This document shows positions 10,396 through 61,944 of a DNA stretch of 64,000 bases, in pieces. Position 1 is the stretch's first letter; every line of letters begins with the position of its first letter. The DNA is from Dehalogenimonas sp. WBC-2. Its GTDB lineage: Bacteria; Chloroflexota; Dehalococcoidia; Dehalococcoidales; Dehalococcoidaceae. The notes beneath the pieces are model-generated. The model worked only from the letters and a program-made list of their open reading frames with translations. It searched no databases and was not told the DNA's origin. The position numbers and the translations under genes were made by a program. The DNA lies in contig CP011392.1 in the NCBI GenBank assembly GCA_001005265.1, forward strand, positions 310,001 to 374,000, given 5' to 3'.

Positions 10396-10424
10396 TTGCA
10401 GCGATTTGTTCATATTGGTATAAT
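10396..10424 (+). promoter_or_regulatory. Predicted sigma-70 promoter of rplU-rpmA-rpmE
   Basis: TTGCAG (10396-10401), a 17-base spacer and a perfect TATAAT (10419-10424). Transcription should begin near 10431. This matters for the choice of the rplU start: the only upstream in-frame ATG (10423) lies inside the -10 box and would not be transcribed. Confidence 0.75.
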
Positions 10425-10452
10425 GGCAAGTTGTTTTTTCTGGAGGTGTGCC

Positions 10453-10773
10453 ATTTACGCGATAGTTGAATCCGGTGGTAAACAGTATAAAGTTACCGAA
10501 GGTCAGGTTGTTGATGTCGATAAGCTCGACGTTGAGGTCGGCAGTACCGTGGAACTGGAACGGGTGCTTTTTTTCTCTGACGGTCAGACCAATTCCATCG
10601 GTAAGCCCCTGATTGAAGGCGCCAAAGTCGTAGCCAAGGCAGAAGGCAATGGCATGGGTGAAAAAGTACGCGGCTTGCGTTACAAGTCCAAGACTCGCGC
10701 CCATACCCGCACCGGCGGCCGACCCCTGTTCACCAGACTTAAGATTGAGAACATCATCACCCCCGCAAAGTAA
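10453..10773 (+). CDS. rplU: 50S ribosomal protein L21, apparent ATT start codon
   Basis: Structural protein of the large ribosomal subunit; 106 residues from the chosen start. The family begins MYAIVESGGKQYKV, and here that methionine position is an ATT (10453-10455). A strong ribosome site, TGGAGGTG, sits 6 bases before it. The only in-frame ATG upstream (10423) falls inside the -10 box, and no GTG or TTG is available in frame near the right place. An ATT start, as known for infC, is therefore the best reading. A base error for ATG is the alternative. First gene of an rplU-rpmA-rpmE run. Confidence 0.93.
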   Translation: MYAIVESGGKQYKVTEGQVVDVDKLDVEVGSTVELERVLFFSDGQTNSIGKPLIEGAKVVAKAEGNGMGEKVRGLRYKSKTRAHTRTGGRPLFTRLKIENIITPAK

Positions 10774-10788
10774 TAGAGGAGATTTCAC

Positions 10789-11043
10789 ATGGCTCATAAG
10801 AAAGGCGGCGGTTCAAGCCGCAACGGTAGAGATTCCAAGCCCAAGATGTTGGGCGTTAAGAGGTATGCCGGTCAGAAAGTGAACGCGGGCACCATTCTGG
10901 TACGTCAGCGCGGCACTCCAATTAAAGCCGGACTCAATGTTGGTATCGGGCGGGATCATACCCTGTTTGCTTTAGTTGACGGTGTAGTGGCCTTCCAGCC
11001 TACAAGTGATAACAGGAGGATGGCCAGCGTCAAAACTGGTTAG
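10789..11043 (+). CDS. rpmA: 50S ribosomal protein L27
   Basis: 84-residue large-subunit protein near the peptidyl-transferase centre. The sequence opens [16 protein letters not shown], typical of L27 without the N-terminal extension cleaved in Firmicutes. A clear ribosome site (AGAGGAG) precedes the ATG. It lies 15 bp after rplU, and the L21-L27 pairing is nearly universal in bacteria. Confidence 0.98.
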
Positions 11044-11050
11044 CTGAATT

Positions 11051-11263
11051 ATGAAAGAAAAACTTCATCCCAAATTTTTTCCTGAGGCCAAAGTGACCTG
11101 TTCTTGCGGCAATATTTTTCTGCTGGGTTCCACCAAACCGGAGATTAAGGTTGAGTTGTGCAATAAATGCCATCCCTTCTACACCGGTGAGCGGCGTATG
11201 GTGGATACCGCCGGCAGAGTTGATCGCTTTAAACAGCGCTACAGCATCAAAGAACAAAAATAG
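11051..11263 (+). CDS. rpmE: 50S ribosomal protein L31, zinc-binding form
   Basis: 70-residue large-subunit protein. It keeps the zinc ligands of the C+ form: CSCG near residue 15 and CNKC near 36, followed by HPFYTGERR. It is the last gene of the rplU-rpmA-rpmE run, 7 bp after rpmA, and a strong terminator follows at 11281. Confidence 0.97.
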   Translation: MKEKLHPKFFPEAKVTCSCGNIFLLGSTKPEIKVELCNKCHPFYTGERRMVDTAGRVDRFKQRYSIKEQK

Positions 11264-11280
11264 TCTTATCAGTGCTTTAA

Positions 11281-11310
11281 AAAAGGGCGGTTTTCAACCG
11301 CCCTTTTTTG
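11281..11310 (+). terminator. Rho-independent terminator after rpmE
   Basis: A 12-bp stem (AAAAGGGCGGTT with AACCGCCCTTTT), a 3-base loop and a run of T. It closes the ribosomal protein operon. Confidence 0.9.
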
Positions 11311-11413
11311 GTTTATTGCGGCGGCGGCGCTATATGTGTAAAGATAGCATGAAGTACAGCCAGGTGCTGATCGGTAGCCTTATTTAGAAAAATTAAGGAT
11401 TCAGGACACAAAG

Positions 11414-60317: not shown

Positions 60318-61944
60318 AGAACTCTATCTGACGCGGGGTGGAGCAGTGGCAGCTCGTCGGGCTCATAACCCGAAGGTCATAGGTTCGAATCCTATCCCCG
60401 CTACCATTTGGTACAGTACCAAGAACCCCTGTTTCCCCAACGTTATTGATCGTATTTGGGAATGGCGCGAAATACTCAACCTCCACTTGATTGCCCAAAA
60501 CACGGATCTCTTTCACGAAACTTCGAAACAGCGCTTTTTGTTCGCTGATTGATCCTTCCTGAAGTACCTGCTCCATTTCGGCTGAATATTCAACAAGGGT
60601 TTTTAAATCAATCCCGGTGACACGCTTGTCCGACTCTCCATAACTTAAATCCTCTTTGGTGCCTTGGAGTTGTTCTTGCTGGCTCCTTAACTGTTTTATT
60701 CGTGGAGCTAAATCCTCGAAATTAAAACTCCTGGATTCGAGCGCGTCATATAAGGCATCGAGTTTTCGCGAAACCTCACCAAGTTCAGAATCAACTGTTT
60801 TTAATTTGTTGAAGTATTCGGATGAGGCTTGCTCTTCTTCTTCGGCGATCATTTTGAGAACTTGTTGTAAATTGTCCTGGGTTAGAGCCTTTGCCATAAT
60901 TTCATTGATGATCCGACTCTCGAACTTTCGGGCATTGATGTAATTGGCCTTGCAACTGCCCGCTCCTTTTTTAAGTAGATTACCGCAAACGTAATAGGCG
61001 AACTGACCGCTCTTGGCCTGCTGGCCGATTAGAGCTTTCCCGCAATGGCCGCATTTGATGATGCCGCTCAATAAGTATTGGCTTGAAACACGTTTGGGAT
61101 GAATATTGTTTGGAGCTCGACTCGCGATGGCGTTTTGCACCTGTAAGAACACCTCACGGTCGATGATGGCTTCCCATGCACTCTCCACTCTTGTAGGAAC
61201 AAGGTCTTTCTTAGTCCGGCTTCGCTTGCCCCAGACGGAAGCGCCAGTATAAACCTCGTTGTTGATGATTTGCCAGAGGCTGGTGACGCACCAGTTTTTG
61301 CCCCTGGGTCCGGCAATGCCATCGTTATTCAATCCTTTGCACACTTCCTTAAGACCGTTACCCGATAGCGCTTCGTTGAAGATGCGTCTGATAACACCAG
61401 CTTGACTTGGTTCGGGTTCGAGCTTAGATCGGTCTTTCTCCCCATCTTTGACCTTAATTCGTCTGTAACCATAAGGGACAATGCCGGTGACGAAAAAGCC
61501 ACGTGATGCACTTTCTTTGATACCGCGCCGAACCTCTTCGCCCAAGTTGGCCGAGTAAAATTCGTCCAGGCTTTCGATTATTGCTTCCATTAACCTACCT
61601 GTCGGAGTGTCTTCGGATGGTTCGTTGATCGAAATCACCTGGACGCCGTGTTTGCGGCATATCGCTTTGAATACGATAGAGTCTTCCCGGGACCTCGAAA
61701 AACGGCTGAATTTCCAAACCAGTATCAATTCAAAAAGTTTTTGCGGCCGTCGAACAGCGGCGATCATTTCCCGGAAAGCAGGCCGGTGTGTTGTACAGCC
61801 AGTTTCGGCTGCATCGATGTATTCTTTAACGATCTCATGGCCTTTGCTCTCGGCATATGCCCTTAAAGCCTTAAGTTGGGCCGAAATCGAAAGATCAACA
61901 TCCTGTTTTTCGGATGAAACGCGAGCGTACAACACAACTTTCAT
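60304..61944 (-). CDS. Large serine recombinase of an integrated element
   Basis: 546 residues. The N-terminal resolvase domain begins VVLYARVSSEKQD, with the nucleophilic serine near residue 10. A recombinase domain follows (about 165-300), then a zinc ribbon (CGHCGKAL...CGN...C, about 298-330) and a coiled coil (about 360-440). The last 35 or so codons are read through the antisense strand of the initiator tRNA gene (the RIRTYDLRVMSP segment), so the chromosome supplies its C terminus. This places the integration site at the 3' end of the tRNA. Similar islands are known at tRNA and ssrA genes in Dehalococcoides. Confidence 0.93.
   Translation of the reverse strand: MKVVLYARVSSEKQDVDLSISAQLKALRAYAESKGHEIVKEYIDAAETGCTTHRPAFREMIAAVRRPQKLFELILVWKFSRFSRSREDSIVFKAICRKHGVQVISINEPSEDTPTGRLMEAIIESLDEFYSANLGEEVRRGIKESASRGFFVTGIVPYGYRRIKVKDGEKDRSKLEPEPSQAGVIRRIFNEALSGNGLKEVCKGLNNDGIAGPRGKNWCVTSLWQIINNEVYTGASVWGKRSRTKKDLVPTRVESAWEAIIDREVFLQVQNAIASRAPNNIHPKRVSSQYLLSGIIKCGHCGKALIGQQAKSGQFAYYVCGNLLKKGAGSCKANYINARKFESRIINEIMAKALTQDNLQQVLKMIAEEEEQASSEYFNKLKTVDSELGEVSRKLDALYDALESRSFNFEDLAPRIKQLRSQQEQLQGTKEDLSYGESDKRVTGIDLKTLVEYSAEMEQVLQEGSISEQKALFRSFVKEIRVLGNQVEVEYFAPFPNTINNVGETGVLGTVPNGSGDRIRTYDLRVMSPTSCHCSTPRQIEFYYPT
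60332..60406 (+). tRNA. Initiator tRNA-fMet(CAU)
   Basis: The anticodon loop CTCATAA gives CAU. Three consecutive G-C pairs (GGG/CCC) close the anticodon stem, the hallmark of initiators. In the acceptor stem, position 1 (C, 60332) faces U (60402), so the first pair is mismatched as in initiators, although the usual partner is A. The discriminator is A and the CCA is encoded. The D-arm part GGAGCAGTGGCAGCTCG and T arm ATAGG-TTCGAAT-CCTAT are regular. Confidence 0.9.
60396..60422. other. Putative attachment site at the tRNA-fMet 3' end
   Basis: The tRNA acceptor 3' strand plus CCA (60396-60406) is followed after one base by a perfect palindrome, TTGGTAC-A-GTACCAA (60408-60422). Dyad symmetry is expected in serine-recombinase att sites. 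The other end of the element lies outside the window, so the core cannot be fixed. Confidence 0.5.

Follow-up and report, generated by a model that had tools for sequence, protein, structure and literature searches.

The rplU locus and its start codon

The window analysed here is the whole 64,000-nucleotide stretch of the Dehalogenimonas sp. WBC-2 contig CP011392.1 from position 310,001 to 374,000, and positions below are those of the window unless stated otherwise. It contains three ribosomal protein genes in the order rplU-rpmA-rpmE, with rplU first, as follows.

10396-10401, + strand: predicted -35 element of rplU, TTGCAG (TTGC invariant in 8 genus genomes)
10419-10424, + strand: -10 element TATAAT, within a conserved TTGGTATAATGGC context (invariant or nearly so in the genus alignment)
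10431-10452, + strand: predicted short 5' leader of ~22 nt (start point placed from the -10 box)
10441-10448, + strand: extended Shine-Dalgarno (SD) sequence TGGAGGTG (GGAGG ends 6 nt before ATT)
10453-10455, + strand: ATT (AUU) start codon of rplU (kept in 8/8 genus genomes and 67/131 class loci)
10453-10773, + strand: rplU, ribosomal protein L21 (TIGR00061, E 4.5e-30, 104 bits)
10789-11043, + strand: rpmA (L27), ordinary ATG start (control gene)
11051-11263, + strand: rpmE (L31), ordinary ATG start (control gene)

The rplU match to TIGR00061 is full-length, with a score well above the curated cut-off of 43.7. Profile position 1 is the Tyr immediately after the ATT, which places the ATT at the usual site of the L21 initiator Met; the codons that follow are TAC GCG ATA GTT GAA TCC GGT GGT AAA CAG (YAIVESGGKQ). 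A previous reading made from the sequence alone (the sequence-only reading) had the L21 frame begin with ATT, 6 nt past GGAGG, and this is indeed the arrangement at 10453-10455 and in the relatives described below.

Four in-frame canonical codons lie 5' of the ATT: GTG 10354, GTG 10360, TTG 10396 and ATG 10423. Translation from one of these, giving an N-terminally extended L21, is the obvious alternative, and the ATG at 10423 is the natural candidate. However, this ATG (10423-10425) overlaps the -10 box and lacks an SD, TTG 10396 falls within the -35 box, and the spacing of the SD fits the ATT. On the 3' side, the nearest canonical codon, GTG 10549, lies 32 codons inside the protein, too far in for any downstream start to yield L21. 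The codon at the true N-terminus is other than ATG, GTG or TTG, and no usable canonical start accompanies it.

The promoter and leader

The promoter proposed in the sequence-only reading, TTGCAG-N17-TATAAT, is present, with its 17-nt spacer, at 10396-10401 and 10419-10424, and it is conserved in the eight genus genomes; under its strict match rule, the consensus promoter scanner did not report it. In the alignment of the eight genus leaders, TTGC, TTGGTATAATGGC-AGTTGTTT and TCTGGAGGTG vary little or not at all, and between GGTG and an invariant ATTTACGC there is a variable stretch of 4 to 5 nt.

A structured leader RNA of the L20/L21 type was considered for rplU and rejected, because an Rfam search gave no family matching the leader and the predicted fold is not above that of shuffled sequences (z-score about +0.95). 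A weak L20_leader match, far under the gathering score, lies at the end of the operon (11244-11315).

Conservation within the genus and its sister genus

Comparison of the rplU start regions gave ATT at codon 1 in all eight genus genomes (G000, G124, G135, G068, G178, G200, G189 and G113) and in all three sister-genus genomes, and ATG at that site in none. GGAGG lies 6-7 nt 5' of the ATT in all eleven. In four genus members (G135, G068, G178 and G113) there is no ATG, GTG or TTG from the upstream in-frame stop to rplU codon 2. Leader indels shift the upstream ATG out of the L21 frame in several genus genomes; elsewhere an in-frame stop intervenes.

These comparisons dispose of two simple explanations. 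The first is an assembly base error, the real codon being ATG, which deserved consideration while the observation rested on one genome; identical ATT codons in independent genomes across the class leave this a negligible prospect, and a sequencing error at 10453-10455 was rejected. The second is initiation at ATG 10423, which the sequence-only reading had also discounted, and which is rejected by the frame shifts and stops in the relatives. The relatives exclude both explanations, and synthesis of L21 very probably begins with fMet at AUU.

Distribution of the start across the Dehalococcoidia

The start is not the peculiarity of a single genome for which it could have been taken in the sequence-only reading, being conserved as AUH in most of the sampled families of the class. 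Codon 1 of rplU is AUH in 80 of 131 Dehalococcoidia loci (67 ATT, 11 ATC and 2 ATA); as the loci came from searches and from fetched regions and mostly represent the best L21 matches, the sampling is uneven and the fraction describes this sample rather than estimating a value for the class. Four of the 80 have an in-frame ATG nearby and may use it; with these left out, AUH starts are found in 37 of 58 sampled families. In the remaining Dehalococcoidia loci, codon 1 is ATG, GTG or TTG or, often, an ATG lies 1-3 codons upstream.

Some relatives do have an upstream TTG or GTG that might serve as a start. Against this, in 42 of the 80 AUH loci the interval from the upstream in-frame stop to rplU codon 2 is devoid of canonical codons, and together with the indels and stops in the genus leaders this makes an upstream canonical start of any kind very improbable.

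The choice of codon is closely associated with the strength of the ribosome-binding site. In a 106-locus subset, a strong SD (at least five contiguous matches) precedes 69 of 72 AUH starts, whereas only 2 of the 26 starts that are canonical have one (Fisher p=2e-17, a value that overstates the independence of the loci because they are kin). Of these 72 AUH loci, 61 have ATT as codon 1. At codon 4, also Ile, the same genes have 34 ATA, 16 ATT and 8 ATC, so the ATT at codon 1 does not reflect a local Ile codon bias. The control genes are canonical throughout the resolved loci (rpmA 21/21, rpmE 34/34). Outside the class, the readable rplU starts among 20 loci from other Chloroflexota classes, a few of which could not be resolved, are ATG or GTG, at or upstream of codon 1, and in a genome-contig sample of other phyla rplU starts with ATG, with one GTG.

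These sequence comparisons strongly support a rplU start at AUU and show the non-AUG codon and a strong SD being retained jointly. The class-wide conservation and the strong SD also support the existence of a constraint that keeps the codon non-AUG.

Two further arrangements were seen among the class loci. In family f31 (L132, L133, L136, L309, L013 and L021), rplU has seemingly gained an N-terminal extension of ~12 codons that starts with GTG, TTG or, in two loci, GTA or TTA, which are possible further odd starts. In L022 (family f38), rplU looks leaderless, with TTGACA-N17-TAGAAT and an in-frame ATG within a few bases, five codons before the usual start.

Other non-canonical starts in the genome

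A simple home-made gene model, run over 1.254 Mb of the genome (73% of its length), predicted about 1,070 genes and will miss some. The great majority of these use ATG, GTG or TTG, and non-canonical starts amount in this survey to ~1% of genes or fewer. With a strict penalty, the only convincing cases were rplU (ATT), infC (ATA) and rsfS (CTG). A milder penalty gave more candidates, of which relatives confirm two genus-wide, rpsF and porG. A broader SD-anchored scan was swamped by antisense frames and served only to supply candidates. Thus, rplU is not alone in the genus; other genes use AUC, AUA or CUG. The AUH start was traced across the class for rplU and infC.

The gene rsfS (ribosome silencing factor, TIGR00090; 26184-26531, - strand) has its CTG at 26531-26529, downstream of an AGGAG and two codons after an in-frame TAG. 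The genus keeps this CTG throughout (8/8 genomes), and over all 27 loci the tally is 22 CTG, three TTG, one ATG and one GTG. The S6 gene rpsF has ATC behind a GGGAGG-type SD in 8/8 genus genomes (L361:18263, - strand, genome position 932263; L408-L415) and ATG in Dehalococcoides-like relatives. A porG-like gene (pyruvate:ferredoxin oxidoreductase gamma) that adjoins a tRNA gene (L365:5888, - strand, genome position 999888; L378-L385) starts with ATC or, in one genome, ATT throughout the genus (8/8). A CTG start behind CAGGAG is probable for purD (genome C1:746930, - strand, in L239). An ATA start for thiE (genome position 414930) was dropped for lack of conservation within the genus. One RNase PH-like frame begins abruptly in mid-domain (genome C1:1198096, + strand, L375), possibly through a frameshift or an assembly error.

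Initiator tRNA, IF3 and infC

A different kind of explanation is that AUU is read as a normal start by an unusual initiator tRNA or through a change in decoding. The initiator tRNA is ordinary, with anticodon CAU (L264, window 60332-60406), the tRNA loci retrieved (30 of 45 tRNA places, as their own loci) include no unusual initiator, and the great majority of the ~1,070 modelled genes start with ATG, GTG or TTG. Special decoding is therefore exceedingly improbable.

Aligned with solved IF3s, the IF3 of this genome is matched along its full length, and it looks conventional. Its gene, infC, reads GGGGAGGTAGCCAGCAC-ATA, and ATA is the infC start in most readable loci of the class, others having ATC, ATT or, in a few cases, a TTG-type start. 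An in-frame TAG lies between the SD and the ATA in sister-genus infC. The parallel with infC drawn in the sequence-only reading is thus apt for this class. However, infC is ATA both in genomes with an AUH rplU and in genomes with a canonical one. No co-variation of the infC and rplU start types was found among the genomes compared, and so none that points to IF3 itself.

Proposed control of L21 output at the start codon

IF3 destabilises initiation complexes on codons other than AUG, GUG and UUG, and infC is autoregulated in this way. Three features expected of an IF3-discriminated gene are found at rplU: a non-canonical start codon with no usable canonical one, a strong, well-spaced SD and evolutionary conservation of the non-canonical codon. 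That a conserved AUU is paired with a very strong ribosome-binding site points to throttling of L21 output at the step of start-codon recognition.

The following scheme would account for this. The promoter directly upstream would transcribe rplU with a ~22-nt leader, and the near-perfect SD would hold the 30S subunit on the mRNA. The ordinary tRNA-fMet (CAU) would start at AUU, with the third codon base mismatched, giving fMet-Tyr-Ala-Ile.... Since IF3 destabilises mismatched complexes, rplU initiation would be throttled to a degree dependent on IF3 activity relative to 30S. L21 would in this way be held below the level that the SD by itself would give and would be tied to the signal that autoregulates infC (AUA in the class). 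We infer the IF3 tuning from the conserved non-AUG codon and strong SD, the conventional IF3 and the published IF3 cases, and by analogy with infC such throttling is the likeliest purpose of the AUU. Besides the absence of co-variation with infC, two considerations count against it: over a third of the loci sampled are canonical, so AUU is not indispensable, and every ribosome needs stoichiometric L21, so strong repression would be costly.

The main rival is a static weak start, in which AUU behind a strong SD is tolerated and has become fixed without dynamic control by IF3. Slow growth would need little L21, selection would merely balance SD and codon, and the AUU may set merely a fixed low rate. 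The AUC, AUA and CUG starts of other genus genes indicate that such starts may be broadly tolerated, and many families have a canonical rplU start, almost always without a strong SD, as simple rate balancing predicts. On the other hand, ATT is retained in those 67 of the 131 class loci although its conversion to ATG needs a single base change, and the control genes of the same operon are never non-canonical. A fixed rate of this kind is a serious contender but has less than an even chance of being the explanation. The account as a whole, comprising an AUU start, a strong SD and IF3-linked throttling of L21, we regard as likely to be correct.

A bolder extension, and an unlikely one at present, is an IF3 start-codon regulon in Dehalogenimonas-like bacteria, comprising infC (AUA), rplU (AUU), rpsF (AUC), rsfS (CUG) and porG (AUC/AUU). 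If true, L21, S6 and the ribosome silencing factor would be set jointly by the level of IF3, and the supply of subunits would be linked to the capacity for initiation.

Comparison with known systems

Documented bacterial AUU-type starts are few. The class-wide AUU of rplU provides many natural replicates for asking what purpose non-canonical starts serve, with contrasts of presence and absence inside one class. A practical consequence is that gene finders limited to ATG, GTG and TTG are likely to misplace L21 starts in the class. The full-text literature yielded no AUU-started bacterial rplU or other AUU-started core ribosomal protein gene, which is weak evidence of absence as subscription journals and preprints lie mostly outside that search.

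The closest likeness is to infC of E. coli and other bacteria (AUU, AUA or AUC): both are translation genes with an AUH codon behind an SD, conserved over a wide clade, and the rplU arrangement is otherwise known mainly from infC. The difference lies in the product. That of infC is the discriminating factor, whereas that of rplU is L21, which would be a regulated target with no autoregulatory loop. In vitro, more IF3 disfavours AUU/CAU pairing (PMC10158994).

IF3 represses non-canonical starts both in infC and in Streptomyces sigR, which starts with GTC (PMC5472188). Like rplU, sigR combines a conserved non-canonical start with an extensive ribosome-binding site (AGGAGGTG), and its start had been misannotated to upstream canonical codons (PMC5472188). 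It differs in its codon, in being conserved at the level of the genus, in serving a sigma/antisigma balance and in having been shown experimentally, rplU being known from sequence.

In Staphylococcus aureus, conserved AUU and AUA starts behind an extended SD reach about 10% of the output obtained with AUG (PMC13009471). These starts, cvfC1 (AUU) and ccpN (AUA), share with rplU the conserved non-AUG codon and the extended SD; neither is a ribosomal protein gene, and their conservation is reported among the staphylococci (PMC13009471). The AUU start of E. coli pcnB is cited as limiting translation (Binns and Masters 2002, cited in PMC13009471, PMC1780047); as cited there, pcnB has the same codon as rplU but encodes poly(A) polymerase and not a stoichiometric ribosomal protein.

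The L20/L21 leader RNAs likewise control ribosomal protein output at the mRNA leader, and the rplU leader differs from them in having neither structure nor an Rfam match. Judged by its sequence, rplU probably joins the IF3-discriminated starts, among which it would be unusual as a core ribosomal protein gene whose start is conserved across a class.
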